Source: Arthrospiribacter ruber (GTDB taxonomy: Bacteria > Bacteroidota > Bacteroidia > Cytophagales > Cyclobacteriaceae). Taken from it: 64,000 nt of DNA. Location: contig NZ_RPHB01000010.1 of the NCBI RefSeq assembly GCF_019343195.1, positions 1 through 64,000 on the forward strand, given 5' to 3'. Positions 6,406 through 17,940 of the stretch are shown piece by piece. A program made the position numbers and the translations under genes. Each line of letters opens with the position of its first letter. The stretch's first letter is position 1. The notes below the pieces were generated by a model. It saw nothing but the letters and a program-made list of their open reading frames with translations, was not told the origin of the DNA and ran no database searches.

Positions 6406-6611
6406 CCTTGCGGGTTGAAATTTACTGGATTAAGAAATTTTTTAGAGTGTTAAACAGTTCTAATCGCAAAATTTATATAAAAATAGCGATCATAATCGCA
6501 GAATTCATATGATTTCTGCGATTAAGTATTATAGTAGCAATTGGCCATTGGATTAAAGCTTGCCCAAAGATGTTATTACTACTTATGATGCCCAAGCCTA
6601 AAATAACTATT

Positions 6612-6696
6612 CGTGCCTTTCAGGCCCAGCATCCATCCTCGCTCCATACATGAAATGGGCTGTACCCATTTCTAGGGTATTACGGCCTTTCAGGCC
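6612..6696 (+). repeat. REP-like composite repeat, copy 1 (no transposase beside it)
   Basis: Three palindromic modules occur in order: CGTGCCTTTCAGGCCC (core centred 6620), a stem of GAAATGGG and CCCATTTC (6652-6672, centre 6662), and GGCCTTTCAGGCC (6684-6696, centre 6690). The last two modules are 28 bp apart centre to centre, exactly as in the two copies flanking the Y1 transposase at 15561-16013. This suggests a non-autonomous relative mobilised by that enzyme or a relative. Confidence 0.75.
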
Positions 6697-6701
6697 GAGG
6701 G

Positions 6702-14018: not shown

Positions 14019-15047
14019 ATGAAGCTGAATTTAAACATTGATGATAGTTCGAGTATTCCCAAATACATTCAGGTCGTCAAGGCCATCAAAGGCCTGATTA
14101 CTTCAGAAGTGTTGCGATTTGGAGATAAAATCCCTTCGATCAATAGCTTAAGTGCAGAGTATTACCTTTCGAGAGATACGGTCGAAAAGGCTTATGCCAT
14201 TTTGAAAAAACAAGGCATCATAGAATCAGTGAGAGGGAAAGGCTATTATATCAGTCATCACAATGACCTTTCTAAATACACTGTTCTTTTGTTGTTCAAT
14301 AAGTTGAGTGCCTATAAAAAGGAGATTTTCAATTCATTTGTGACCACCCTAGAAGGACGTGCGGAAATCAATTTTCAAGTACATCATTGTGAATACGAGC
14401 TTTTAAGGAAAATCCTGGAGACACAGAAGGGGGGCTTCGATTTTTATGTTGTAATGCCCCATTTCAAAAAAGAGCAAGAGCAGAAGGCTTACGCTTTGCT
14501 GCAAAATCTACCCTCAGAAAAATTGGTTTTATTAGACAATAAGCCTGATGGTTTGGACTGCTTTGGGGCCATTTATCAGGATTTCAAAACCGATATTTAT
14601 GAAGCCTTGAAAAAGCTTAATTCCAAACTGAGAAAGTATAAGAAACTTATTTTGGTTTTTCCTTTCCATTCCAATTACCCCTATCCGCAAAATATCGTTT
14701 CCGGTTTCAAAAAATATGCGTTTGAGGAAAACCTGGATTTTGACGTGATTCAGGAAATCTCTGATGAAGTTTCACCGCAGAATGAGGAGGCCTATATTGT
14801 CATTGAAGAGACAGATCTTGTCAATCTCATCAAAAAAGTGCGGGAAATCCCAGGTCTTGAAATCGGTAAAAATCTCGGTATTTTGTCTTATAATGAGACT
14901 CCGCTAAAGGAGGTTTTGCAAAAAGGAATCACAGTGATGAGTACAGATTTTAATGTGATGGGTAGGCTTTGTGCTGAAATGATCCTGAGCAAAGAAGGTA
15001 AAATGATCAAAAATGGGTTTAGGGTGATTGTAAGGGAGTCTTTGTAG
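14019..15047 (+). CDS. GntR-family transcriptional regulator with sugar-binding-type effector domain
   Basis: This 342-residue protein has an N-terminal winged-helix GntR domain (residues about 8-75: PKYIQVVKAIKGLI, FGDKIPSINSLSAEYYLSRD, YAILKKQGIIESVRGKGYYI) joined to a LacI/periplasmic-binding-type domain (residues about 85-340, ending NVMGRLCAEMIL and RVIVRESL). It is divergent from rhaEW and is the obvious candidate repressor of rhamnose catabolism, with rhamnose or a phosphorylated intermediate as effector. Motifs resembling its own promoter region recur upstream of lutA and of the permease at 16534. The role is inferred from context. Confidence 0.85.
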   Translation: MKLNLNIDDSSSIPKYIQVVKAIKGLITSEVLRFGDKIPSINSLSAEYYLSRDTVEKAYAILKKQGIIESVRGKGYYISHHNDLSKYTVLLLFNKLSAYKKEIFNSFVTTLEGRAEINFQVHHCEYELLRKILETQKGGFDFYVVMPHFKKEQEQKAYALLQNLPSEKLVLLDNKPDGLDCFGAIYQDFKTDIYEALKKLNSKLRKYKKLILVFPFHSNYPYPQNIVSGFKKYAFEENLDFDVIQEISDEVSPQNEEAYIVIEETDLVNLIKKVREIPGLEIGKNLGILSYNETPLKEVLQKGITVMSTDFNVMGRLCAEMILSKEGKMIKNGFRVIVRESL

Positions 15048-15058
15048 AAATTGAATAG

Positions 15059-15094
15059 GATAATCGGTTTTTTTTCGATTATCTTATTTTTTTA
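15059..15094 (+). terminator. Terminator after the GntR gene
   Basis: GATAATCG (15059-15066) pairs with CGATTATC (15076-15083) around a T-rich loop and is followed by TTATTTTTTTA. Confidence 0.55.
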
Positions 15095-15445
15095 TTACAT
15101 TTTCGATATGCTAAAAATGATATCAGTCGATTTATCAAAAATCAAAAAAAATTGGAGATATGGAGTCCTAAATACTTCCATGATTTAGTGGCCCACCTGA
15201 AAGTAAAAGGGAAAAATTAATAGGCTGGGATGATAGACCTTTTTTTGAGCCATTTTTAAAATGATCAGAAATTGTTTTGGTTGATAGAAAAGGGGGGTAG
15301 AAATTGAATAGGATACTTTAATAGTTGATTTTTCATGAGACTGATGCTAAGCTTACATCTTATCAATTCTGCACTATTAGTTCAAAATACCTTCGGATAG
15401 AGTTAAACTTTACGAATTAAGGTGAATAAACCTCTTTTCTTCCTA

Positions 15446-15533
15446 GGCCTGAAGGGCCAATATAATATAGAGTTGGGTGCAGCCCAACGCTAATTGGATT
15501 ATCACCAGTAACATTTCCCAGGCCTGAAAGGCC
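15446..15533 (-). repeat. REP-like composite repeat, left flank of the Y1 transposase
   Basis: Modules are GGCCTGAAGGGCC (15446-15458), GTTGGGTGCAGCCCAAC (15472-15488) and GGCCTGAAAGGCC (15521-15533). Read on the minus strand, the order and the 28-bp centre spacing of the last two modules match the copies at 6612 and 16161, although the central stem has a different sequence (GTTGGG/CCCAAC instead of GAAATGGG/CCCATTTC). Confidence 0.75.
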
Positions 15534-15560
15534 GATATAACTATTAAAGTTTCCAGTTAT

Positions 15561-16013
15561 TCAGTCCCAAACATATCTTTCATCATATTCCACCTTGAAT
15601 TTTTTTAAAATAGCTCTATACTCATTTTGAAACGATTTCTTTTCATGGTGCTGTTTCTGATTTTTTATATAATCAATTACAATATCCACTTGTGATGGAT
15701 TTACAGAAAATGCACCATAGCCATCTTGCCAATAAAAATTTTTCAGGTAATCGGACTGCGTTTTCATCCATTTTGAAGATTCAGTTTTAAGATTTTCCAC
15801 CATTTTGATCAGGGCTAATTTTTTGGAGAGCAGGCATAAGACGTGTACATGGTCAAGATGTCCTCCAACTATTAAGGATGGAGATTCAAGGTTTCTGCAT
15901 ACTCCTCCCAAATATCGGAATAGAGAAATTTCATATTCTGGCAATATAAAAGGTTGTCTGTTTTTGGTGCTGAATATGATGTGTAAGTAATTTTTAGCAA
16001 GTGATTGTCCCAT
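15561..16013 (-). CDS. IS200/IS605-type (RAYT-like) Y1 transposase
   Basis: This 150-residue single-domain HUH transposase has FSTKNRQPFILPEYE near the N-terminus, the HUH-type metal motif GGHLDHVHVL, and the catalytic tyrosine region WQDGYGAFSV followed by IDYIKNQKQHH, in which Tyr of DYIKNQ is the expected nucleophile. Length and motif order are those of TnpA_Y1 enzymes. The frame is intact and all expected catalytic residues appear to be present. Flanking palindromes with GGCCTTTCAGGCC cores support the REP-associated (RAYT) type, but classic IS200 is also possible. Confidence 0.88.
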   Translation of the reverse strand: MGQSLAKNYLHIIFSTKNRQPFILPEYEISLFRYLGGVCRNLESPSLIVGGHLDHVHVLCLLSKKLALIKMVENLKTESSKWMKTQSDYLKNFYWQDGYGAFSVNPSQVDIVIDYIKNQKQHHEKKSFQNEYRAILKKFKVEYDERYVWD

Positions 16014-16160
16014 AGAAGATTAACTTTAAAAATTAAGAATTAAATACATATAGATTCTTAATAAATGAAATTTGTTAGTAAGGATAAATTATAAGATGAA
16101 GTCCAGAAAAAAAAGTTTGAAAGTGATATTAACCGTTTAAATTCAAGCTTGAGAATTGTC

Positions 16161-16252
16161 CGTGCCTTTCAGGCCCGTGATGATTGAAAAATGATTGTTT
16201 GATTTTAGAAATGGGCTTTACCCATTTCTTTGCTATGTTGGCCTTTCAGGCC
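16161..16252 (+). repeat. REP-like composite repeat, right flank of the Y1 transposase
   Basis: Modules are CGTGCCTTTCAGGCCC (from 16161), a stem of GAAATGGG and CCCATTTC (16208-16228) and GGCCTTTCAGGCC (16240-16252). The last two have the same 28-bp centre spacing as copy 1 at 6612-6696, and the outer spacer differs in length (49 versus 42 bp centre to centre). Confidence 0.75.
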
Positions 16253-16309
16253 ATAGATTTAGGATGATTTGAAAGGAGAATTTGAAATTTTCTAGGTCAT
16301 GTCAATCCC

Positions 16310-16320
16310 CTATACTGATT
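16310..16320. promoter_or_regulatory. Candidate shared regulatory motif upstream of the permease
   Basis: CTATACTGATT is identical to 13938-13948 in the rhaEW/gntR promoter region and lies 214 bp upstream of the permease start. It may place the permease in the rhamnose regulon; chance identity cannot be excluded for an 11-mer. Confidence 0.3.
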
Positions 16321-16533
16321 AGCCTTTCCTAAGCATCTTGAAATATCTCATTAAAGGGCAGAGGTCAATGAAATGCCTGGAGAGCAAAAATTATATTCCA
16401 TTGGTTGTAACCAAATCCTTCCATTTAACGAATTGAACCATTGTCTGGAGTGGGTAAAACACCAAACAGGACATCACAGGATACCATAACCCATAGGATT
16501 TTTGTATTTTTCAATTTCAACCCGAAATTACCT

Positions 16534-17940
16534 ATGGAAAAAACTACTTCCCCAAAGGAAGGGACTGTTTCAGGCGAGTTTGAACGCCAACCTATCCCTT
16601 CTTCCCATCACAAAAGTTGGAAAAAATTTCTGGGCATGTATGCCGGGGAACACGCTGCGGGGACGGAGTTTGTGATAGGGCCTTTGTTTTTGACGGCCGG
16701 GGTATCTGCTTTTGACCTGATAGTAGGCTTGCTATTGGGGAATTTTTTGGCTGTGCTGACTTGGAGATATGTAACCACTCCACTTGCAACAGCTGAGCGC
16801 TTGACTTTGTATTATAAATTGGAAAAAATCGCCGGTAAAAAACTTGTGACAGGTTACAATCTGGCCAATGGACTCTTATTCTGTTTTTTGGCCGGGGCCA
16901 TGATCACCGTATCAGCCACGGCGGTTGGAATTCCTTTTGACATGCCCATGCCGGCTTTGACCGATACTGTTCCCAATAGCCTTTCTTGGGTTTTGGTGGT
17001 ATTGACTGTTGGGGCGGTGATTTCCATTGTGGCAGCCAGAGGTTATGATACCGTTGCGAAATTCTCCAATTGGGCGGCTCCATTTATGATTGCTGTATTT
17101 TTGATAGCCGGAATCGTAGCCGCCAACCGTTTGGGAGTTGATTCTTGGAGTAGCCTTTGGGCAGTATGGGGAGAGGGTTCAGAGCCATTTCCCGGACAGA
17201 TAAAATTCACCTTTTGGCATGTACTGTTCTTTGCTTGGTTTTGCAATGCGGCCATGCACTTGGGTATGTCTGACCTGTCCGTATTGCGCTATGCCGATAA
17301 AAATTCAGTAGGATGGACCACTGCTGCGGGGATGTATGTGGGGCACTTTATGGCTTGGATTTCGGCCTGTCTGATGTTTGCGCTGTACCTCAAAAGTCCG
17401 GAAGCTGCAGCGATATTTACCAGTGGAGGCATACCACCTGTGGCACCCGGACCATTGGCTTATGAAGTGGTCGGAATTGCAGGTCTGATCTGTGTAGTCA
17501 TTGCTGGGTGGACCACTGCCAATCCTACGATATATAGGGCGGGGTTGGCATTTCAGGCTATTTTCCCAAGAAGCTCTACAGTGAAAGTTACTTTGGTGAC
17601 AGGAGGGATCGCGACTATCGCAGGACTCTTTCCGGCTTTTGCGATGAAATTGCTGGACTTCGTGGCCGTTTATGGTTTTATCCTGGCACCTGTAGGCGCG
17701 GTGATCTTTTTCGAACATTATTTTGCGGATAAAATGGGGTTTGGGAAAGACTACGCCATAAATAAAGGCTTAACATTTAATTGGGCCGTTTTGGCCGCTT
17801 GGCTGATCAGCATGGCTGTATTTTACAGCATTTCTGTTTATTTCGGTATTTTTCTCTCTTTCTTTACTTTGCCTGCCTGGATTGCTTGCGGATTGTTGTT
17901 CTTGGTGTTTAGCAAGAGATTGCAAAGCCAAAAGAAATAG
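16534..17940 (+). CDS. NCS1-like (purine/cytosine permease type) membrane transporter
   Basis: This 468-residue integral membrane protein has about 12 hydrophobic segments. An N-terminal cytoplasmic tail precedes the conserved first-helix region (WKKFLGMYAGEHAAGTEFVI), with a GLLLGNFLAVLTWRY second helix as in nucleobase:cation symporters. The start at 16534 (MEKTTSPKEG) is preferred to 16441, because the extra residues have no family character. The substrate is not determined by the family alone: neighbours suggest a role in rhamnose metabolism, and no RhaT-like transporter is in the window. An ordinary nucleobase transporter remains the default reading of the family. Confidence 0.75.
   Translation: MEKTTSPKEGTVSGEFERQPIPSSHHKSWKKFLGMYAGEHAAGTEFVIGPLFLTAGVSAFDLIVGLLLGNFLAVLTWRYVTTPLATAERLTLYYKLEKIAGKKLVTGYNLANGLLFCFLAGAMITVSATAVGIPFDMPMPALTDTVPNSLSWVLVVLTVGAVISIVAARGYDTVAKFSNWAAPFMIAVFLIAGIVAANRLGVDSWSSLWAVWGEGSEPFPGQIKFTFWHVLFFAWFCNAAMHLGMSDLSVLRYADKNSVGWTTAAGMYVGHFMAWISACLMFALYLKSPEAAAIFTSGGIPPVAPGPLAYEVVGIAGLICVVIAGWTTANPTIYRAGLAFQAIFPRSSTVKVTLVTGGIATIAGLFPAFAMKLLDFVAVYGFILAPVGAVIFFEHYFADKMGFGKDYAINKGLTFNWAVLAAWLISMAVFYSISVYFGIFLSFFTLPAWIACGLLFLVFSKRLQSQKK

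Follow-up and report, generated by a model that had tools for sequence, protein, structure and literature searches.

We describe here what is probably a REP-like system within the Y1 transposase family, on its IS200 side, in which a Y1 enzyme with the subclass 1.2 signature is accompanied by a cognate DNA element of two hairpins set at a fixed distance of 28 nt. The window analysed, a stretch of 64,000 nucleotides from Arthrospiribacter ruber (Bacteroidota, Cyclobacteriaceae), holds the Y1 gene and three composites that contain the element (table 1). Units of this kind share one anatomy and a fixed geometry, show compensatory change in their stems, lie mostly inverted on the two sides of Y1 genes and co-occur with such genes across genomes; further copies are dispersed, and relatives lack the block in which the gene of the window sits. 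If this reading is correct, it supplies a cognate substrate for a Y1 subclass reported without one, widens the range of REP-type systems to include several phyla and the IS200 side of the family, explains a class of intergenic repeats recurring in several of the searched genomes, and offers a testable rule, namely what sets the 28-nt spacing.

Table 1. Features of the window (positions are those of the 64,000-nt stretch)
Feature	Start	End	Strand	Description
Lineage-specific block	15048	16465		~1.42 kb; A, Y1 gene and B plus ~400 bp on the left and ~210 bp on the right; absent in relatives
Composite A	15446	15533	+	Outer palindrome 15446-15458, central stem 15472-15488, inner palindrome 15521-15533; R1 73.4 bits
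Y1 HUH transposase/endonuclease gene	15561	16013	-	ORF, intact, 150 aa; motifs DHVH, YIKNQKQHH
Composite B	16163	16252	-	Outer palindrome 16240-16252, central stem ~16207-16229, inner palindrome 16163-16175; R1 60.7 bits
Composite C	6614	6696	-	Palindromes 6684-6696 and 6614-6626, stem in between; R1 63.5 bits

The Composites of the Window

The earlier note, made from the sequence alone, had placed an intact Y1 gene between two inverted composites, each with a palindrome, a central stem and a second palindrome, and had found one palindrome and the stem 28 bp apart in both. This anatomy is borne out: the reading frame is intact, all four palindromes are present, and A and B, which flank the gene, are mutually inverted. 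Centre to centre, 28.0 nt separate the outer palindrome from the central stem, the partner on the + strand being the leading palindrome in A and the final one in B. Both listed composites are real, but a third, C, had been missed; it keeps the same 28.0 nt, and the Y1 genes detected in the genome are all located away from it. The spacing from stem to inner palindrome is not constant (~47 nt in A and ~49 nt in B, counted on the sequence). All three outer palindromes are of the GGCCT-GAA-AGGCC type, with one arm mismatch in A (15446-15458); the inner palindrome of B (16163-16175) also has one mismatch. With up to two mismatches allowed, the window contains 10 occurrences of GGCCTGAAAGGCC where 1.61 would be expected, a count reached in 0 of 100 shuffles. 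Shuffles and the GntR control loci (see below) rule out a chance origin of the composites. At gathering scores, Rfam yields a single tRNA in the whole window and nothing at the composites. A long inverted repeat of the AGCTATACTCGAAATT type, perhaps a terminator, adjoins C (6604-6700, plus 60 bp beside the outer palindrome).

A Two-Hairpin Unit with a Fixed Geometry

The core unit consists of a 13-nt palindrome (5-bp stem, 3-nt loop) followed, after ~11 nt, by a variable stem centred 28 nt away. The three modules first described do occur in A, B and C; as the unit, however, the three-module composite was replaced by palindrome plus stem, with the second palindrome optional, because many units of one related genome (G052) pair head-to-head without it. 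The contention that the central stem conserves structure rather than sequence is sustained by two alignments. Across 21 composites, hand-picked from 63 pairs (plus C) for good palindromes and a visible stem, so that the figures are no blind test, 92.6% of cells are paired and double changes affect 15 of the 18 pairs; none of 500 shuffles is as high on either count, and 4 of 500 are as high on one further measure. For the central helix alone, in the same rows, 87.8% of cells are paired and 6 of 7 pairs are double-changed, the innermost pair standing at 61.9%. Model R1 was built from this alignment, A, B and C all being training rows, so that the R1 scores of table 1 are not independent. Model R2 represents palindrome plus stem; in its alignment pairing is kept in 94.7% of cells, and 10 of 13 pairs are double-changed (0 and 9 of 500 shuffles as high).

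The distance itself was measured in two collections. Among 55 distinct units of G052, picked by the palindrome alone but from stretches fetched with a stem-containing model, palindrome and stem are 28.0 nt apart in 31, 28.5 in 12 and 29.0 in 10, the remainder being one at 27.5 and one at 33.5 (in L070); 54 of 55 thus fall at 27.5-29.0 nt. Stems reach at least 7 bp in 52 of the 55, compared with 4.7% of shuffles in a run on 48 of them. The second collection comprises the best 80 of at least 585 named Y1 loci (46-69% identical), 50 from Bacteroidota and 30 under nine other phylum labels, mostly MAGs; some of them, short MAG contigs, are possibly mis-binned, and L151 and L201 are apparently one record. 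A scan of 321 palindromes at these 80 loci (those with listed purine-rich loops, redundant copies kept), with no distance preselected, found stems of at least 7 bp 69 times at 28 nt, 8 times at 29 and 3 times at 27, with at most four stems at each other distance from 14 to 90 nt. The spacing, which the earlier note had proposed to check, is therefore not random. Some letters recur as well: positions +17, +18 and +24 following the palindrome are A, T and A in 71, 84 and 84% of 141 units (61 loci) from Bacteroidota and two allied labels, and in 76, 68 and 89% of 38 units (14 loci) from other phyla. On the strand opposite the GAA loop, 83 of 181 units have CT at offset 10 exactly, the modal offset though under half, and an AG/CT cleavage site is at most weakly suggested.

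The Unit Accompanies Y1 Genes

To count units without a model, we defined a strict unit as a perfect 5-bp palindrome plus, 27-29.5 nt away, a stem of 6 bp or more. Such a unit lies within 500 bp of the gene at 54 of the 80 named loci (the best 80 of at least 585) versus 0 of 80 mononucleotide shuffles, and is absent from the other 26. Within the order, it is found at 22 of 26 close Y1 loci (absent from 4), 1 of 22 weaker Y1 loci and 0 of 19 GntR loci, the latter searched up to 500 bp from the GntR-type regulator; the close set omits L042, L044, L151, L157, L162 and L166, and the weaker set omits L058. Searched with R2, 56 Y1 loci comprise 27 with matches on both sides, nine with matches on one side and 20 without matches. 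Orientations, judged by eye with partial matches included, are inverted at 25 of the 27 two-sided loci (19 inward, 6 outward) and the same at two (L035, L046); among two-sided named loci, again from the best 80 of at least 585, 21 of 28 are inverted and in 7 the nearest units share one orientation. At 7 of 23 weaker Y1 loci (L049, L050, L058, L061, L168, L171, L175), same-orientation palindrome pairs ~46-58 nt apart are seen, often on both sides of the gene, with no 28-nt stem. We are inclined to think, with some reserve, that an IS200-side REP system extends across Bacteroidota, Planctomycetota, Verrucomicrobiota, Acidobacteriota and others, its recognition unit being a single-stranded two-hairpin substrate with an invariant 28-nt spacing, in which the conserved signal is distance and not sequence, and that the stemless pairs of the weaker Y1 loci represent a second design.

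One contig binned as Methylococcaceae (L200) has a Y1 gene with Bacteroidota-like units, reflecting either mis-binning or transfer.

At the scale of whole genomes, the unit again tracks related Y1 genes; of the two outcomes that would have refuted the earlier note, random spacing and occurrence only where no related Y1 exists, neither was observed. A protein search of 59 related genomes, A. ruber included, detected Y1 relatives at E<=1e-15 in 31, and many of the better ones are flanked by the same anatomy in different letters. R1 matches 22 of the 59, 21 of which belong to the 31 Y1-positive genomes; after removal of the nine model-building genomes, it matches 12 of 22 with Y1 versus 1 of 28 without. 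R2 matches 23 of the 59, 22 of them with Y1. We then have 241 genomes of the order, with Y1 at E<=1e-5 in 116 and R2 at E<=0.001 in 54; with stricter filters and 22 candidates scored in each genome, this R2 scan gives copy counts that are lower bounds. The unit is present in all 22 genomes with a close Y1 (best E<=1e-38, a cut chosen after the list was seen), which span eight family codes, in 27 of 94 with a weaker Y1 only, and in 5 of 125 without detected Y1. Of the next five genomes below the cut (G261, G159, G059, G158, G271), three have the unit. Fisher tests of close versus none give p values of 1e-21, or 1e-18 without the four model-training genomes, which are too small since related genomes are not independent. 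Five Y1 queries against 20 stretches from 10 genomes without a close Y1, three of the five Y1-less genomes included, found no Y1 near the units, apart from 20 matching residues at the edge of one contig (L302).

The letters of the palindrome also go with the enzyme. Placed on the Y1 tree, the 5-letter palindrome arm takes 50 changes over 106 rows (107 minus one without a palindrome), against a shuffled mean of 64.0 and a minimum of 58 in 300. A stricter set, with 16 of the 107 rows dropped, gives 39 changes against 49.1, and Bacteroidota alone 23 against 30.8; the other 15 dropped rows were automatic palindrome picks resembling the central stem or its reverse; two of these picks, with GGGCC, may be genuine. 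Support is weak for many branches of the tree, and host ancestry in common may account for part of this agreement. Such agreement, the mostly inverted placement, the presence at 22 of 26 close Y1 flanks against 0 of 19 GntR flanks and the lack of any Rfam family at gathering score are difficult to reconcile with composites that are terminators or RNA hairpins of the neighbouring genes, linked to Y1 incidentally. We consider this explanation very unlikely, even though units in the A. ruber genome are intergenic by ORF test (of 30 match places examined, none is over half inside an ORF of at least 120 aa) and one family there has its second palindrome followed by GATCTTT and more T, as in a terminator.

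The Enzyme and Known Systems

The Y1 protein has the HUH pair, the catalytic Tyr and the Y1_Tnp profile of the Y1 superfamily, Pfam Y1_Tnp matching its 150 aa with 74.9 bits (E 7.5e-21; cut-off 23); the NCBIfam IS200 profile gives 52.5 bits, under its 55-bit cut-off. In an alignment of 25 proteins H55 and H57 are invariant and Y115 is at least 90% conserved. Q119, H122 and H123 are likewise invariant in 25 of 25, and the Y---Q--HH motif of TnpA-Y1 subclass 1.2 is present as YIKNQKQHH; the Y--NP motif of canonical RAYT is absent from the protein in this alignment. The predicted structure (mean pLDDT 89.4) is nearest to the folds of IS608 and ISDra2 TnpA, and the TnpA-REP structure 4er8 comes at rank 30, after 29 chains that belong to IS608, ISDra2 and further transposases, IS200-like or putative; by sequence, IS608 is the sole solved relative found. 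Judged from its motifs, the enzyme carries a subclass 1.2 signature and falls on the IS200 side, so that of the earlier label, IS200/RAYT-like, the first half stands and the protein is not a canonical RAYT.

A drifted class 2 RAYT-REP pair of the canonical kind would also show inverted flanks and dispersed copies, as in REPtrons, and contig C12 of the same genome does carry a class-2-like Y1, its C-terminal motif missing, with a unit ~300 bp away. Such an origin is nevertheless highly improbable given the absent Y--NP motif, the rank of 4er8 and the lack of a GT[AG]G foot in all 181 units when both strands and a 6-nt flank are considered. The subclass 1.2 assignment, in turn, can be set against its published portrait: Y---Q--HH and DH[IV]H motifs, ~150 aa, low copy number, occurrence in Bacteroidetes and Cyanobacteria, REP tabulated as "no" and a general lack of typical IS200 terminal structures, as far as the text and table of that paper go (Quentin 2018, PMC6006769). 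Our Y1 is alike in its Y---Q--HH and DHVH motifs, its ~150 aa, its Bacteroidetes host and its low copy number (one gene copy plus one 38% identical homologue in the genome). It is unlike the subclass as described in that text in having the unit at 22 of 26 close loci and at 54 of the best 80 of at least 585 named loci; the absence of REP-like structures, a reported rather than a defining trait of the subclass, does not hold here.

The partnership that the earlier note expected as an equivalent of RAYT-REP in this lineage is supported, yet it is not confined to the lineage, and the same paper already reports REP-type systems in Bacteroidetes for subclasses 2.4 and 2.6 (PMC6006769). As in RAYT/TnpA-REP systems with their REPs, BIMEs and REPINs, the Y1 gene lies in inverted palindromic repeats with copies elsewhere, head-to-head pairs occur in one genome (G052), and palindrome and enzyme agree; unlike them, the present system is without a GT[AG]G foot and a Y--NP motif, and has two hairpins at a fixed 28 nt. 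Subclass 2.6, with its "atypical secondary structures" (PMC6006769), likewise joins Bacteroidetes Y1 genes to unusual flanking structures with copies elsewhere; its Y motif, YIH[QN]NP, is different, and its structures may be identical with our unit. TIRtrons/TIRYTs are also Y1 genes in inverted repeats, some of them double palindromic; compared by description, they have a GGGGWSAS motif and no 28-nt rule in the text (Di Nocera 2013, PMC3733652). REP-type systems are known as a kind, and within the open-licence literature the IS200-side two-hairpin system looks like a little-described variant, although related structures may be contained in figures or supplements of PMC6006769 and PMC3733652.

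The Genomic Block

The block is bordered by a GntR-type regulator gene (14019-15047) and a downstream gene (16441-17940) without Pfam match, a permease by its look. Among the 19 relatives with the GntR locus, six span both neighbour genes and have no Y1 between them (6 of 6), and the other 13 stop short of the downstream gene. The two genes adjoin in five of the six; ~0.7 kb lie between the aligned parts in G009. In G001 the stop codon is followed directly by the sequence located after ~16465 in the window. The ~1.42-kb block is therefore specific to this genome among those compared, and its ends differ from the composites. Composites as transposon ends find no support, the block being longer by ~400 and 210 bp. 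Its outer parts have no direct repeat of more than 8 nt in common, and the only full-length match in the genome to a query of 15048-16463 is the query stretch itself. To the left of A, the 3' end of the GntR-type gene is imperfectly duplicated, with 253-258 bp from one copy (14999-15062) to the other (15257-15315).

IS200/IS605 elements are mobile, with same-strand hairpin ends in direct orientation and multiple copies; IS608 and ISDra2 are autonomous insertion sequences with non-inverted ends, unlike the inverted composites here. That the block is an ordinary insertion sequence of this group, the composites being subterminal hairpins, is improbable. IS608 and ISDra2 TnpA are nearest in predicted fold and in sequence to the window Y1, YxxxQ stands within the Y motif, and palindromes within one composite are directly oriented, as in IS200-type ends; but the composites around the gene are inverted, the block ends do not match them, the Y1 gene is single copy (next homologue 38% identical) in a block found once, and the NCBIfam IS200 cut-off is missed. 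Same-strand hairpin ends in multiple copies were not found. Units and enzymes also differ in number: G052 has 100 R1 matches and two Y1 matches to the window query. The genome of A. ruber, in which the earlier note had suggested counting the composite, holds 32 model matches at E<=0.01, one overlapping A; only three copies of the window's own unit family were found there. Many units of G052 (L122-L150) are paired head-to-head as in REPINs, with 4-8 bp between the partners in model coordinates.

A Possible Mechanism

For the preferred REP-like system, we hypothesize that the Y1 enzyme binds, cleaves and moves the unit. One strand would become single-stranded during replication or repair, allowing both hairpins to fold. 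The palindrome would be recognised by its sequence and, across the ~11-nt linker, the second hairpin by position and shape, as the fixed distance combined with changing stem letters suggests. A Y1 dimer might hold both hairpins, the 28-nt spacing acting as a ruler, and nick the linker, perhaps at the CT opposite the GAA loop, and then move or copy the element to other places. Palindrome letters would drift with the enzyme, leading to several families per genome, some of them without a cognate enzyme found there.

Further Unit Families

On contigs C1, C14 and C18 of the A. ruber genome (G000; L092-L120), more unit families are observed: AGCCTGAAAGGCT with a CCCAGACT stem, AACCCCGAAGGGGTT with a CCCGGG-type stem, and GCCCTGTAAGGGC. 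A close cognate Y1 for these families was not found in the genome. Positions G000:C12:85561-85764 and 86061-86137 (L283) correspond to the class-2-like Y1 without its C-terminal motif and the two-hairpin unit ~300 bp off. On C1, at ~501-503 kb (L114), a 406-bp tandem array of 3.2 copies coincides with three unit matches 406 bp apart.
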